Shown here: positions 40,729-64,000 of the stretch, in pieces
Numbering within the stretch: position 1 is the stretch's first letter
Layout of the letters: every line of letters begins with the position of its first letter
Assembly (NCBI GenBank): GCA_038961845.1
Contig: CP152408.1
Location: 62,001 to 126,000, forward strand
Length of the DNA stretch: 64,000 bases
Origin: Xylophilus sp. GW821-FHT01B05
Lineage (GTDB): Bacteria; Pseudomonadota; Gammaproteobacteria; Burkholderiales; Burkholderiaceae_C
Direction of reading: 5' to 3'
Program-made: the position numbers and the translations under genes
Notes under the pieces: generated by a model
Databases searched by the model: none
Told to the model about the DNA's origin: nothing
The model's input: only the letters and a program-made list of their open reading frames with translations

Positions 40729-41868
40729 GTGAAATCCCGAACCATCCGCGCCTGGAGCGCCATACACCGCTGGAGCAGCCTGGTATGCATGCTGTTCATG
40801 CTACTGCTGTGCGTGACCGGCCTGCCACTGATCTTTCATCACGAGATCGATCACTTGCTCATGCCCGCGCGTCCGGCCTTGGTGCCGGGCACAAGCGCGC
40901 CGTCCCTCGAAGCCGTTGTTCTAAAGGCGCAGGCGGCGCGTCCTGGCCAAGTCGTCAACTACATCTACTTTGTCGACGATGCGCCGCACGCCATGGTCGC
41001 CACGGCCGAGCGTCGCGATTCCCTGCCCGGCGACACCCACTACCAGCTGTTTGACTTGCGTGACGGACTGATGCTTGAGCATCGGCAGCCCACCGAGGGC
41101 TTCATGTACGTAGTGGCCAAACTGCACGTGGATCTGTTTGCCGGCATGAAGGGCATGCTGTTCCTCGGCGCCATGGCTCTGTTGCTTTTGTTAGCGATTG
41201 CCAGCGGTGTGGTGCTGTATGCGCCCTTCATGCGCAAGCTCGGCTTCGCCACCTTGCGTGACACGCGCGGGCCGCGCGTGCTCTGGCTCGATGTGCATAA
41301 CCTGCTGGGCATCGTCACAGCCGCATGGCTGGGTGTGGTCGGCTTCACCGGCGCCATCAATACGCTGGCCATGCCCGTTGAGATGCTCTGGCAGAGCACC
41401 GAACTGGCACAGATGGCAGCGCACCCGCCCGATCGCGCCGCAGGTGCGCCGCATGCCGCGGTGGACGATGTGCTGGGCAGTGTGCTGACCGCAGCCCCGG
41501 GCAAGACCGTGCGCACACTGGCCTTCCCTGGCACTCCCTTTGCCAGCCCGCATCACTTTGGCGTCTACCTGGTGGGCGACGCGCCACTCACCAGCCGGCT
41601 GCTTTCCCCCGCGCTGGTGGACGCCGGCAGTGCTCGCGTGGTCGATATGCGCGATATGCCCCTGTATGCCAAAGCTCTGTTTCTGTCGCAGCCGCTCCAT
41701 TTTGGCGACTATGGCGGCATGCCCTTGAAGATCATCTGGGCCATTCTGGATGTGCTGAGCATTGTGGTGCTCGCCAGTGGTATCTACCTGTGGCTCCGCA
41801 AGCCCCGGGCGGCGCTTGCCAGCGCTGCGGGCCGGCGCAGGCAAGCGCCGCAGGAGCGCGCGGCATGA
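40729..41868 (+). CDS. PepSY-domain membrane protein (PiuB/FoxB-like)
   Basis: A 379-residue inner-membrane protein from GTG 40729, preceded by gaggc. It has IHRWSSLVCMLFMLLLCVTG (first membrane helix with the family His), a periplasmic PepSY region, ALLLLLAIASGVVLYAPFM, LWLDVHNLLGIVTAAWLGVV and a last helix IVVLASGIYLWL. Members reduce or handle ferric siderophores in the periplasm (FoxB, PiuB type). It lies between the two receptors and couples to a small membrane protein by ATGA overlap. Confidence 0.9.
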   Translation: MKSRTIRAWSAIHRWSSLVCMLFMLLLCVTGLPLIFHHEIDHLLMPARPALVPGTSAPSLEAVVLKAQAARPGQVVNYIYFVDDAPHAMVATAERRDSLPGDTHYQLFDLRDGLMLEHRQPTEGFMYVVAKLHVDLFAGMKGMLFLGAMALLLLLAIASGVVLYAPFMRKLGFATLRDTRGPRVLWLDVHNLLGIVTAAWLGVVGFTGAINTLAMPVEMLWQSTELAQMAAHPPDRAAGAPHAAVDDVLGSVLTAAPGKTVRTLAFPGTPFASPHHFGVYLVGDAPLTSRLLSPALVDAGSARVVDMRDMPLYAKALFLSQPLHFGDYGGMPLKIIWAILDVLSIVVLASGIYLWLRKPRAALASAAGRRRQAPQERAA

Positions 41869-59560: not shown

Positions 59561-61201
59561 TCAGGCGTAGCTCGGCTCCAGCCGCGGTGCTGCGAGCTGC
59601 GGCTCGTGCTGCTGACCCGCCGGCGCCTGCAGCAGCAGCGCGTCGTGGATCAGGAAGTTCTGCACCGACTCCTGCAGGCGGCCGGTCTGGCTCTCCAGCG
59701 ACTGCGCGGCGGCGGCGGCCTCTTCCACCAAGGCGGCGTTCTGCTGCGTCACCTCTTCCATCTTCTGCAGCGCGTGGCCGATCTCTTCGATGCCGCGCGT
59801 CTGCTCGCCCGAGGCATTGGCGATTTCGCCCAGGATCTGCGACAGCGTGCCCACCGAACCCACGATCGCCTTCATGCGCTCGCCGGCCTGGCCAACCAAT
59901 GCGGCGCCGCTCTGCACGCTTTGCACCGAGTGCTCGACGATGCCGCGGATGTCCTTGGCCGCGCTGTCGGTGCGCTGCGCCAGCTCGCGCACCTCGGCCG
60001 CCACCACGGCAAAGCCGCGGCCATGCTCGCCGGCGCGCGCCGCCTCTACCGCGGCGTTGAGCGCCAGCAGGTTGATCTGGAAGGTGATGGTGTTGATGAC
60101 GCCCACGATGTCGGCGATCTTCTGCGAGCTGCCCTGGATCGTGCCCATGGTGTTGACCACATCGCCCATCACGCGCTCGCCCTCGCTCGCCTCGCGCGAG
60201 GTGCCCAGCGCCAGCGTGCTGGCGCGCTGCGCGCCCTGGCTGTTGTGCTGCACGGTGGCGGTGATCTGCTCCATGCTGGCAGCGGTCTGCTGCAGCGAGG
60301 CGGCCTGTTCTTCGGTGCGGCTGGCCAGGTCGGCATTGCCCCGGGCGATCTCCTGCACACCGAGGTTGATGGCTTCAGAGCGCACGCGCACGGCGGCCAC
60401 GGTGCGTGCCAGGCCCTGCTGCATCTGGTGCGCGGCATCCATCAGGCGGCCGATCTCGTTGCGGCCCAGCGGCGCGGCGATGCTTGCGCGCAGGTCGCCG
60501 GTCTGCATGGTGCGGAAGTGCTCCACCACCTGGTCCAGCGGGCGCACGATGGTGCGTGTGAGCAGCAGGCGCGTCAGTACCGCCAGCACCACGGCCAGGG
60601 CGATGCCGGCGGCAAGCGTGGCCAGCATCTGCGTGCGCCGCGTCTGCGCGGCCTCGTAGGTGGCGTCCATGGCCTGGGCATCAAAGGCCAGCAGCTTCTT
60701 CACCTCGGCCTCGTAGCCGCCGTAGAGCGCGGTGGATTTGCCGGCGATCTGCCGGTAGGCGTCGATATCGCCCTTGCCCAGGGCCGCCAGCGCGGGCTCG
60801 ATCAGCTGCTGCACCAGCGCCTGGCGCTGCACGGAGGCGGCGGCCACCAGCGCCTTCTTGGCCGGGTCGCCGCCGGCCAGCTTCAGGTAATCGTCCCAGC
60901 GCCGCTCGGCGTTGGCGAACTTGTCCTGCGCACGCGCCAGCGCCTTGGCGGCGGCGTCGGCCTTGTCTTCGCCCAGCAGCGACTCATGCAGCCGCAGATC
61001 CAGCCGCGCACGCAACTGCCACTCCGCGCTCTCGTCCAGCGCGCGCAGGCTGGGCACCAGGTTCTTCTGCACGGTGGAGAAGCTGTTGTTGCTTTCATCG
61101 ATGGACCACAGGCTCAGCAGGCCGATGGCGGCCATGAGCAGGGTCAGCGCGGTGAGGACGATGGTGAGGGTGGTGCGTATGGAGAGGTGGCGTAGAGACA
61201 T
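59561..61201 (-). CDS. Methyl-accepting chemotaxis protein 2 (Tar-like sensor)
   Basis: A 546-residue receptor with membrane segments at about 8-30 and 191-212, a four-helix periplasmic domain ([20 protein letters not shown]), a HAMP domain and a signalling domain with [20 protein letters not shown]. The C-terminus ends PRLEPSYA, without a clear CheR tether. It stands alone and is unlike the other receptor in its periplasmic half. Confidence 0.95.
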
Positions 61202-61344
61202 GGCAGTTGGATGGAATGGCTTGGACTTATGGACCCAGGGTTGTCACTTATTGTTTGAATTGTTGTCCATGCGTTCCATCCGCGCGGGGCCGCGCACACG
61301 CCTCCCTGCCAGGGACTTGTCTGTCCGCTGCAGGTTTTTTGAAT

Positions 61345-61400
61345 GAAAAGTGCCTCTAGCCCTTATGGCATCTGGGCTGCTAGCTATCTATTTGAGAGCT
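61345..61400. repeat. ~50-bp palindromic intergenic element, copy 6
   Basis: agtgcctctagcccttatgg then catctgggctgctagctatc. The inner arms are less perfect than in copies 3a-5. It lies between the DUF1272 stop and the chemoreceptor start. Confidence 0.75.
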
Positions 61401-61419
61401 ATGCGCTGACAAAGCAAGC

Positions 61420-61668
61420 TCAGGATGCGGCCGTGCACCCTTCGGGCTTGAACACCCGCGTGTTCGAACCCGGGTACTTATCAAGCTTGGCCGCCGGCCG
61501 CGATGGGCGCGGCAGCAATTCCCCGCCGCAGTTGGGGCATGTCCCGGCGAGGCGCTGGTTGGAGCAGTCGCTGCAGAACGTGCACTCGAAGGAGCAGATG
61601 CGGGCATCGGCTGAATCCGGCGGCAAATCCCGGTTGCAGCACTCACAACCGGGGCGCATTTGAAGCAT
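61420..61668 (-). CDS. DUF1272 small cysteine-rich protein
   Basis: An 82-residue protein starting MLQMRPGCECCNRDLPPDSA and continuing ARICSFECTFCSDCSN and GTCPNCGGEL, ten cysteines arranged as zinc-finger-like CxxC pairs. This is the signature of the DUF1272 family. No function is known; zinc binding is inferred. It lies 66 bp after the HTH gene on the same strand. Confidence 0.9.
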   Translation of the reverse strand: MLQMRPGCECCNRDLPPDSADARICSFECTFCSDCSNQRLAGTCPNCGGELLPRPSRPAAKLDKYPGSNTRVFKPEGCTAAS

Positions 61669-61734
61669 GGCGAAACCTTGGAAAGCTTGGTTGCCAAAGC
61701 TTAAGCGAAGGCGAACTGGACGATGGCCGCGATC

Positions 61735-61989
61735 TCAGGCCTTGGGCGACTGCAGGCTGACGCTGATGCCATAAAGCGCAAGCAGGCCCAGCATATGCCC
61801 CACCGACACGCCCGGCTCGCCGGACTCGATGCGGGCAATGGTCTGCACGTGCACGCCCAGGCGGGCCGCTGCAGCGGCTTGCCCCTCGCCTGCGGCCAGG
61901 CGGGCCTGCTTGGCCGCAGCGCCCATGTCCTTGATGGCCTGCACTGCATCGCTATCGATGTCGGAAGAGATTCGCTTGCCTTGGGTCAT
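61735..61989 (-). CDS. XRE-type helix-turn-helix protein
   Basis: An 84-residue protein with an HTH in QAAAAARLGVHVQTIARIES and GVSVGHMLGLLALYGISV. Size and layout match HipB-type antitoxins or small repressors. No toxin gene (such as hipA) is adjacent: it is followed by DUF1272 and preceded by the end of the integron array. Function unassigned. Confidence 0.8.
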   Translation of the reverse strand: MTQGKRISSDIDSDAVQAIKDMGAAAKQARLAAGEGQAAAAARLGVHVQTIARIESGEPGVSVGHMLGLLALYGISVSLQSPKA

Positions 61990-62098
61990 GGGTGGATTGT
62001 TTGTGCACGGTGGCTGGTGGATGTGCCCAATCGATGGCGCTGGGTTTGGTGTCGCGCGCGGTCTTTCGGAGGGCTGCTTCGGGCCTAAAGCAGCCTTT

Positions 62099-62157
62099 TC
62101 TCAACGTTTGACTTAAGCGGCATGCTGTTGTGTGTCCGCTCGATGGAAGGGTTAGGC
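62099..62157 (-). repeat. Integron attC site 1 (array-terminal)
   Basis: Read on the minus strand, the site runs from GCCTAAC to GTTGAGA with inner arms gcgg/ccgc and a TTAAGTCAAACG box shared with the other sites. The last six bases (TTGAGA) differ from the usual TTAGGC. This is expected for the last cassette of an array, whose terminal bases come from the chromosome flank. Confidence 0.85.
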
Positions 62158-62646
62158 GTCAGGTTGCCAACTGTGAACGGTCTTTCCATTGCATCGCAAG
62201 AACGCAGAGCGCACGCGATTGAGTGCGCGAAGTTCCGCAAAGAGCTTGAAGTAGGCCTTCTCCATAGTGCTCCAATCCTCGAACTCTTCATAAGCTCCAC
62301 CGTCCGCGCTGCACTCGATGTGGCCTTTGCGGCCGTGCGAAGGAACATCTTGCCAGATGGCTATCAAAGGAGCTCGCCAAGCTGACCTGCGGGAAGATTG
62401 CAGCACTTGCTGGACTTCACCCTCTGGCACAAAGCAAACGAGTTGACTGTTCGGACCTTCGAGATATAGGCGTCCGCACGCCGAGCATTGATAGCAGGTG
62501 CGAACGACAGAGTGGTCGAAGCGCCAGGGTTCCCTGTACGACTCGTGAAAGTCTTCCCAATCTTGATCTGCGATCAAGTGCCCCTTGTAGGGCAGGAAAT
62601 CTGTCTGATCGGGAATAACGTTGTCGCACTGACAGCGGAACTTCAT
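62152..62646 (-). CDS. Integron cassette protein 1, zinc-ribbon-like, unknown
   Basis: A 164-residue protein of AT-richer composition than its neighbours. It begins MKFRCQCDNVIPDQTDFLPY and carries CxC and CYQCSACGRLYLEG, so it may bind zinc. I do not recognise the family. Its TAA stop lies inside the GCCTAAC core of attC 1, and its ATG comes 5 bp after attC 2, the tight packing typical of integron gene cassettes. Confidence 0.8.
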   Translation of the reverse strand: MKFRCQCDNVIPDQTDFLPYKGHLIADQDWEDFHESYREPWRFDHSVVRTCYQCSACGRLYLEGPNSQLVCFVPEGEVQQVLQSSRRSAWRAPLIAIWQDVPSHGRKGHIECSADGGAYEEFEDWSTMEKAYFKLFAELRALNRVRSAFLRCNGKTVHSWQPDA

Positions 62647-62651
62647 CTGAT

Positions 62652-62711
62652 GCCTAACGTTTGACTTAAGCGGACCGCCGTAGGCGGGTCCGCTTGAAGG
62701 AAGGGTTAGGC
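62652..62711 (-). repeat. Integron attC site 2
   Basis: A 60-bp site with cores GCCTAAC and GTTAGGC (minus strand), and long inner arms AAGCGGACC/GGTCCGCTT around a GCC-GTA-GGC tip. It has the single-strand hairpin structure recognised by integron integrases, and is close to attC 4. Confidence 0.95.
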
Positions 62712-63203
62712 GGTACTTTCGAAATGATTTGGTCCCAGGCGCCTGACGTACAACCAGAGATTGTCAGGGGGCTCGGGAAGTAGCTCAGTGATGGCGGTTT
62801 GGCTCCAGAGGTCAGCTTCTTCATATCGCTCGTAGGAGAAATCAAAGTCGTGGCTTCTTGATACCGTATAGGTGGGACGATTGTCAGGAAATTTGAAATT
62901 GATGGAGTAGGCGTCCAAACGTGGGCCCGGCTTACCACTGCTATCGTGGATCTTCCAGAACTCCGGCATGAGCGGCCTGGATAGTTGCTCCGCAAATGCC
63001 ACAGCGTTCTTGATGTCTCGCCATGCATCTTGTACCTGCAGTTGAGCAGCCTGGATGTATGTGATTGGCCGCTCATTCTTGGGGTATTGGACGTAGATTA
63101 TTCGCGAGCCAAACTGGTACTCGCACTGCGAGACCGAGTTGGTGACATCCCAATGCCCAAGCATGGGCTCACTGGTTAGATCAATGTTCATTGCCATCGA
63201 CAT
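62706..63203 (-). CDS. Integron cassette protein 2, unknown
   Basis: A 165-residue protein starting MSMAMNIDLTSEPMLGHWDV, with no signal or membrane segment and no recognised domain. The alternative start at Met3 or Met5 is possible. Its TAA stop lies in the 5' core of attC 2 (last residues ESTA). Codon use is clearly less G+C-rich than in the chromosomal genes of the window. Confidence 0.8.
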   Translation of the reverse strand: MSMAMNIDLTSEPMLGHWDVTNSVSQCEYQFGSRIIYVQYPKNERPITYIQAAQLQVQDAWRDIKNAVAFAEQLSRPLMPEFWKIHDSSGKPGPRLDAYSINFKFPDNRPTYTVSRSHDFDFSYERYEEADLWSQTAITELLPEPPDNLWLYVRRLGPNHFESTA

Positions 63204-63216
63204 CCGTGATCGTGCC

Positions 63217-63259
63217 GCCTAACGTTTAACTTCAGCGGCCGCCGAAGGAAGGGTTAGAC
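63217..63259 (-). repeat. Integron attC site 3 (short)
   Basis: Only 43 bp: cores GTCTAAC and GTTAGGC on the minus strand around ggccgctgaagttaaac. The variable tip is almost lost compared with the 60-bp sites. The outer boxes keep the shared TTCCTTC and AAACGTTAGGC elements. Confidence 0.9.
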
Positions 63260-63640
63260 GTGGTTCTTGACATAGTGCTCGACCAGTTCCCTTAGGCCGT
63301 ATCTCTCAGCGGGCACGGGGGATATTTCGAAAGCAGTCTTTGTTTGCCAATGAATCAAACCACTCCGCTCATCTGGCTGACGAAAGTTGACGCTTCTCGA
63401 CCAAACGATTGTCGGCTTTAAGGCATGCCGTTCAAGGACTCTTCCCACGGCGTGAATCTTTGCCTGTTCACCAAAAAGCTCTGCAATTACAACTCCGTCA
63501 CCTGTGCGTAGGCGACCCAATATCTCTCGATCAGTGGTTTTCAATCCGGGAATTGGCACAACCACCATTGGAGCCTTCCGTTCGCGCATGCAGTTTTCAA
63601 CAGAATCCTCCCCAAGGTACTGAAACTTCCAGAATTTCAT
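63254..63640 (-). CDS. Integron cassette protein 3, unknown
   Basis: A 128-residue protein starting MKFWKFQYLGEDSVENCMRE; an upstream ATG at 63652 in the same frame (MEIRM) is an alternative. It contains VVVPIPGLKTTDREILGRLR and TIVWSRSVNFRQPDERSGLI. No family recognised, but the EVE/YTH-like order of beta segments is possible. The TAA stop lies in the GTCTAAC core of attC 3. Confidence 0.78.
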   Translation of the reverse strand: MKFWKFQYLGEDSVENCMRERKAPMVVVPIPGLKTTDREILGRLRTGDGVVIAELFGEQAKIHAVGRVLERHALKPTIVWSRSVNFRQPDERSGLIHWQTKTAFEISPVPAERYGLRELVEHYVKNHV

Positions 63641-63681
63641 CCGAATTTCCATTTCTGTGTTTGTGACCTTGCTGGTATGCG

Positions 63682-63741
63682 GCCTAGCGTTTGACTTAAG
63701 CGGACTGCCGAAGGCCAGTCCGCTTGAAGGACGGGTTAGGC
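63682..63741 (-). repeat. Integron attC site 4
   Basis: A 60-bp site with cores GCCTAAC and GCTAGGC on the minus strand; the second core departs from GTTRRRY by one base. Inner arms AAGCGGACT/AGTCCGCTT are perfect. It belongs to the same site family as attC 2. Confidence 0.92.
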
Positions 63742-64000
63742 GACACGGCGAGTGACCAGACCGATGTTGGACGATGCACTGAAGGGCTGGGTGAAGCGGA
63801 CACCGTTGAATGTATGGGTGCAGCACTTGCACTGCGGCGCGAGACTTTCCGGCCCTAGTGATGGATTCACAACCTGTAGCCGACCATTCTCGTCTACTCG
63901 AAGACCGCTGAAATAGCTCGCCTCGCCCGTGCGGACAAGGTCTTGCTCATCCGCCGGATGAAGCGCGACGAGCCAAGAGATCGGCTCCGGCCGATCGAGC
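63736..64000 (-). CDS. Integron cassette protein 4, N-terminus beyond the window
   Basis: An open frame runs leftward from the window edge for about 87 residues and ends RRVA with a TAA in the GCCTAAC core of attC 4. It includes ISWLVALHPADEQDLVRTGE, LAPQCKCCTHTFNGVRFTQP. The CKCC motif suggests metal binding. No family recognised; the start lies right of 64000. Confidence 0.7.
   Translation of the reverse strand, partial: LDRPEPISWLVALHPADEQDLVRTGEASYFSGLRVDENGRLQVVNPSLGPESLAPQCKCCTHTFNGVRFTQPFSASSNIGLVTRRVA

Follow-up and report, generated by a model that had tools for sequence, protein, structure and literature searches.

A small array of four gene cassettes without an integrase beside an AraC-type regulator gene in Xylophilus sp. 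GW821-FHT01B05

Background

When attC-like sites alternate with genes at the edge of a stretch of DNA, do they mark the end of an integron whose integrase lies just out of view, or a group of cassettes that stands by itself? The question is raised by the right-hand end of a 64,000-nucleotide stretch of the Xylophilus sp. GW821-FHT01B05 chromosome (the window; G000:C1:62001-126000, in a genome of one contig of 5,832,500 bases), where the original prediction placed the distal end of an integron, with the integrase gene (intI) and the attI site to the right of position 64000. What we find at this locus is a CALIN (cluster of attC lacking an integrase), an integron fragment of an ordinary sort that has been left stranded, and not a working integron. 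CALINs are common, and from one genome it is hard to tell a decayed integron from cassettes placed at a site other than attI. In the present genome, three relics of decayed integrons, alike in attI region and in distal boundary, are found together with a CALIN that has a clean G|TT junction.

Results

Four attC sites in one orientation

A covariance model (R1) finds four attC in the window at exactly the coordinates originally predicted, with E-values from 5.7e-17 to 2e-7 and the best scores on the minus strand, the strand that had been named for the canonical orientation (Table 1). The four matches span 1.65 kb; the palindromic sites of cassettes 3 and 1 are matched again on the plus strand, with lower scores, and the only other match in the window (41319-41344) has an E-value of 0.54, with none below E 0.5. 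R1 was trained on 11 attC that adjoin intI in other genomes of the family and on none from this genome. Its source loci were the 30 best matches to TIGR02249, none with internal stops, from which 18 attC were collected by regular expression; four were dropped for a length above 100 bp, two as duplicates (one on the wrong strand, the other overlapping) and one as a near-identical repeat, and the 11 others were aligned and the model built with the R and L boxes paired. The pairs covary, with 95.2% of cells paired and 19 two-sided changes where shuffles average 6.3. Rfam at the gathering score gave no match in the window and just two tRNAs in four further loci, a null that tests nothing because attC is not an RNA family.

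Scanning the whole genome with R1, for which 150 of 11169 first-look candidates were scored, gave 12 attC, and one long site was found later. All of them lie in four clusters, and each of the other three clusters adjoins an intI gene or an intI fragment. A scatter of such elements through the genome without neighbouring cassette-like genes, named in the original prediction as grounds for rejecting it, was not seen.

The outer cores had been described as GCCTAAC/GTTAGGC in type, and two sites depart from this description: the right core of the cassette 4 site, GTTGAGA, is supplied by flanking DNA, as for any last cassette, and the R' core of the cassette 1 site is GCTAGGC in place of GTTRRRY, the T next to the crossover being altered. 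The 43-bp site of cassette 2 is shorter than every other site met in the analysis. Folding of the four sites as single-stranded DNA, proposed as a check, separates them into two pairs. The sites of cassettes 3 and 1 fold far better than shuffles on the plus strand, the strand expected to recombine (z -6.2 and -3.4), and both show the pairing of R''/R' and L''/L' with an extrahelical base in a single strand. The sites of cassettes 4 and 2 fold no better than shuffles (z -0.9 and -0.3), the latter with a predicted fold without the extrahelical G; the covariance model still matches both.

A complete array with two ends and no integrase

Read along the minus strand, the locus consists of the AraC-type gene, 18 nt, the core G|TTAGGC, the gene and attC of cassette 1, those of cassettes 2, 3 and 4 in turn, the flank TTGAGAAAAGG.. 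and a helix-turn-helix (HTH) gene. Each of the four cassette genes lies on the same strand and overlaps the start of its own attC, in keeping with the leftward genes alternating with sites that had been predicted, and their lower G+C is likewise upheld (50-59% in cassette DNA against 68.6% for window positions 1-62098). On the left the array ends at 62099, as had been proposed. The right end was read from locus L009 (118001-138000 of the contig), which is identical in sequence to the window where they overlap: the first cassette crosses the window edge and ends 250 bases past it (~64250 in window-equivalent numbering), where its 5' core GTTAGGC (L009:8244-8250) stands 18 nt from the stop codon of the AraC gene (L009 8269-8271). 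What had been taken for the distal end of an integron is instead an entire small array of four cassettes, ~2.15 kb long and lacking an integrase.

The gene that follows on the right is the AraC-type regulator; the intI expected there is absent, and so is an attI of the resident type. Over the whole genome TIGR02249 exceeds its cut-off at 1583314, 2092104 and 3398371 only, the nearest of these lying 1.45 Mb from the array. No intI match at E<=1e-3 is present in 118-158 kb of the contig (L009 and L010), and a weak 22-bit TIGR02249 match at 166.6 kb overlaps a 127-residue open reading frame that resembles, by eye, the N-terminal portion of a different recombinase. A search for the resident type of attI, with the 122-nt region found in the genome's resident arrays, gave no match at E 0.1 in 118-158 kb, and R1 finds no attC at E<=1 in L010 or in L136. 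The locus thus lacks the adjacent intI of a complete integron and, at its proximal end, an attI of the resident type; it has the clustered attC of a CALIN, at least two in one orientation, with no nearby integron integrase and with each gene followed by its own attC.

Table 1. Features of the array and its flanks, and related features elsewhere in the genome (window positions unless a locus or contig is named)
Feature	Position	Strand	Remarks
HTH gene, left flank	61735..61989	-	HTH_31/HTH_3; host gene, outside the array
Inverted repeat then TTTTCTC, left flank	62072..62099	+	Terminator-like by eye; not listed by consensus scan
attC of cassette 4 (distal end)	62099..62157	-	R1 34.2 bits, E 2e-7
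Cassette 4 gene	62152..62646	-	164 aa
attC of cassette 3	62652..62711	-	Canonical, 60 bp; R1 67.9 bits, E 5.7e-17
Cassette 3 gene	62706..63203	-	165 aa
attC of cassette 2	63217..63259	-	Shrunken, 43 bp; R1 34.3 bits, E 1.9e-7
Cassette 2 gene	63254..63640	-	128 aa from ATG 63640 (132 aa from ATG 63652)
attC of cassette 1	63682..63741	-	R1 59.7 bits, E 1.2e-14
Cassette 1 gene, 3' part in window	63736..64000	-	Full gene L009:7736-8236, 166 aa
AraC-type regulator gene, right flank	L009:8269-9303	-	PF14525, HTH_18
attC clusters in genome	this array; 2087.5-2091.5 kb; 3399.7-3401.5 kb; 2839.5-2840.1 kb		4; 4; 3; 2 sites
24-mer GTTGAGCGTCCGCTTCGACATCAA	G000:C1 2087486-2087509, 2840103-2840126, 3401483-3401506		

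Resident integrons and their integrases

Resident array 1 has a 122-nt attI region that the two other resident arrays also carry, at 96-97% identity (the three arrays lie at 2.092, 2.838 and 3.399 Mb); in arrays 1 and 2 it ends ..TTCTGCGGGATAYATTGC|GTT. At their distal ends the three arrays share an identical 24-mer, of which the genome holds exactly three copies, and similarity extends over 42-61 bp. Apparently this genome has duplicated its integron platform. Integron integrases are common in the family, with 113 of 250 genomes having one at E<=1e-60; none of the listed congeners (G001, G003 and G004) does.

Judged from their sequences, all three IntI genes over the cut-off seem defective. 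The catalytic core of int1 (2.092 Mb) matches IntI4 of Vibrio cholerae (2a3v), and a short insertion relative to int2 shifts its frame near the N-terminus; int2 (3.398 Mb), which shares 89.8% identity with int1 over 236 residues, loses sequence past its central region and is without the C-terminal catalytic part. The third, int3 (1.583 Mb), is full length, with Q replacing R147, K172 and H278 (numbering of the trimmed L100 row), positions that are identical in 30/30 intI relatives and that we take to be the catalytic Arg, Lys and His of tyrosine recombinases. The 2.84-Mb array keeps only an N-terminal fragment of intI (31 bits). None of these copies looks intact. As an observation in its own right, int3 (G000:C1 1583314-1584258, L020) encodes a stand-alone IntI-like protein that lacks the catalytic residues in a frame that is still open; neither attC nor a match to the 122-nt attI region at E 0.1 was found in the 20 kb around it.

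Cassette proteins, expression and flanking genes

The original prediction recognised none of the cassette proteins, and indeed none of the four has a significant match in Pfam, NCBIfam, PADLOC or PHROGs; they represent families of putative new function. For three of them, relatives are found in the attC arrays of other genomes. The cassette 1 protein has 1518 homologues at E<=1e-3 (the best 120 listed) and is present in 9 of 399 family genomes, its own included. In one of the other eight it stands beside attC, leading the cassettes of an array with intI that supplied two of the R1 training rows; around the remaining seven, R1 matches nothing within 1.5 kb and the 330 bp downstream contain no attC-like motif, which suggests that cassette 1 also exists as a plain chromosomal gene. 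Further relatives (<60% identity) are found on 608 of 72,556 plasmid records, 575 of them from Klebsiella. On the one plasmid examined (L160; NZ_CP125167.1 154418-154900), the homologue, at 44%, lies near TerY-C-domain and PP2C-type genes. For cassette 2, 260 family genomes yielded one 37-residue C-terminal fragment, inside an attC array of G147. Cassette 4 encodes a CxC...CxxC motif that, by eye, may be a zinc ribbon. Its protein family numbers 24 at E<=1e-3, its own included, and among the 399 family genomes two others match its N-terminal half at 43-46%; both (2/2) adjoin attC, one of them at E 1.5e-4 only. Cassette 3 belongs to a set of 12 proteins, its own included, with two distant relatives (25-29%) in 260 family genomes, where no attC was found below E 0.01; its AlphaFold2 model (pLDDT 91) has no convincing match to solved folds.

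A search for sigma-70-like promoters in L009 5900-9400 gave 0 against 0.7 in shuffles, a result that tests little in the host organism. The cassette genes are co-directional with the AraC gene and lie just downstream of it, so they may be transcribed from it, and read-through would be the likeliest route of their expression. To the right of the AraC gene the translations read, by eye, as a branched-chain amino-acid ABC operon. At E<=1e-12, 48 of the 399 family genomes, its own included, have a homologue of the left-flank HTH gene.

Discussion

Origin of the array

How did four cassettes come to lie between an AraC-type gene and an HTH gene? We consider that the CALIN was probably born by insertion at an attG-like site, through an integrase acting in trans, and kept as the integrases decayed. 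An integron integrase supplied from elsewhere would have recombined the folded bottom strand of an attC with a non-attI, attG-like GTT site just past the AraC gene, the cassettes being deposited singly, one after another, and they would have been retained because the integrases of the genome decayed. The right end of the array reads ..CCTTGGTCACAC|GTTAGGC; joining the right flank, which ends in G, to the left flank, which starts with TTGAGA, gives an implied target with G|TT (G|TTGAGA), and a cassette-free 3' flank of the AraC gene would then read ..GTCACACGTTGAGAAAAGG.. / ..CACACGTTGAGAAAAGG... Both outer junctions show a GTT/GWT triplet at the implied crossover, which is a weak test, as few letters are constrained. 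Secondary integron sites are reported to need GNT/GTT (PMC10127599), and G|TT is the junction form expected at attG sites (PMC12901181). As to the source, when 30 attC outside the array were compared, the last site of resident array 2 proved closest to the array sites A1, A2 and A4 (77, 88 and 87% identity); for the short site, A3, two attC from other genomes score slightly higher (63%, with 62% for that resident site). Tentatively, the array might be a natural multi-cassette CALIN born at attG, whose cassettes left a resident integron, were seeded behind a regulator gene and were locked in place by the loss of every integrase. With one core changed and one site shrunken, it now appears largely fixed.

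Two observations speak against this origin. Ahead of the right core, 13 nt are more like the L' arm of an attC than the same stretch is at most GTT sites: of 899 such background sites, 6, 12 or 28 reach an equal score, depending on the training set. The numbers of true attC that score lower, by training set, are 0/13, 5/33 and 4/29, so the right end scores like a poor L' arm, and an attC cut by a deletion is possible. Furthermore, no relative with both flanks, and hence no empty target site, was found among the genomes and loci compared. These comprised seven genomes of the genus (three with an AraC match, this one included) and 47 loci from a set of genome contigs; in all, 48 loci with an AraC match were counted (our own omitted; L024 and L026 are the same place) and the DNA examined up to 6 kb on each side. 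The AraC gene neighbours livK in 29 of them and a transglutaminase-like gene in 9, and in 0/48 is an HTH or DUF1272 gene (E<=1e-6) or an MCP gene (E<=1e-30) found in that DNA. Of the further loci with HTH homologues (L074-L092 and L137-L139), L074-L092 have no AraC match, and DNA flanking the array has no match at the junctions. In the nearest AraC relative, G004 (74% protein identity), the AraC gene lies directly beside the transglutaminase-like gene, and the HTH, DUF1272 and MCP genes are absent from the locus (the transglutaminase and MCP labels were given by eye). In the window, MCP, DUF1272 and HTH genes (59561-61989) sit between the transglutaminase-like gene and the array, and they are missing there in G004.

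The same right end underlies the alternative that the array is the remnant of a former complete integron that lost intI, attI and its proximal cassettes to a deletion, the right breakpoint of which fell inside an attC and left the L'-R' half of that site beside the AraC gene. We regard this as a serious possibility, though somewhat improbable. In its favour, decay is seen in the resident integrons, the sequence at the right end (GTCACAC|GTTAGGC) is similar to that of sites within the array (GTCAAAC|GTTAGGC), and the figure of just 6 among the 899 background sites was obtained with the matrix of resident and array sites. Yet with that set the right end scores below all 13 sites (leave-one-out), 118-158 kb hold neither an intI match at E<=1e-3 nor a match to the attI region that the three resident arrays share, and the distal tail GTTGAGCGTCCGCTTCGACATCAA with which those arrays end is absent at the CALIN. 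That the array might still be an active cassette store, mobilised in trans and under selection, would accord with the good folding of two sites and with the one resident IntI that keeps its catalytic core; it is very improbable in view of the altered core of the cassette 1 site, the shrunken site of cassette 2 and the impaired look of all three IntI genes over the cut-off. Least of all do we expect the sites to be a dispersed genomic palindromic repeat beside unrelated genes: their outer cores are indeed simple palindromes, but the 12 + 1 sites of the genome scan (150 of 11169 first-look candidates scored) all fall in four clusters, the other three of which adjoin intI genes or a fragment, and the strand asymmetry of the scores fits attC.

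Comparison with known systems

The array is genuine, and it is an ordinary example of a kind already known. No publication on it was found in the literature on Xylophilus genomes or on Comamonadaceae integrons and attC, among the matches listed. IntegronFinder 2.0 is reported to have found 2961 CALINs and 2760 complete integrons, the CALINs having almost 6 attC on average (PMC9024848). Like those CALINs, the array is chromosomal and combines two or more attC of the same orientation with cassette genes, and no integrase adjoins it; its four attC are slightly below that mean, and it differs from a typical CALIN in having one 43-bp site and one changed core. CALINs away from the integron locus are reported from about half of Xanthomonas genomes (PMC12444791). 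Like the Xanthomonas CALINs away from ilvD, the cassettes described here are spatially apart from the resident integron platform; unlike them, they are hosted by Xylophilus, in a genome whose resident IntI copies look defective. Closest to the origin that we favour are the attG insertions of Loot et al. (2024), which, as described in papers that cite that work, share with the array a G|TT junction outside attI in a single genome with resident integrons, whereas here four cassettes stand in a row and no empty site was found.
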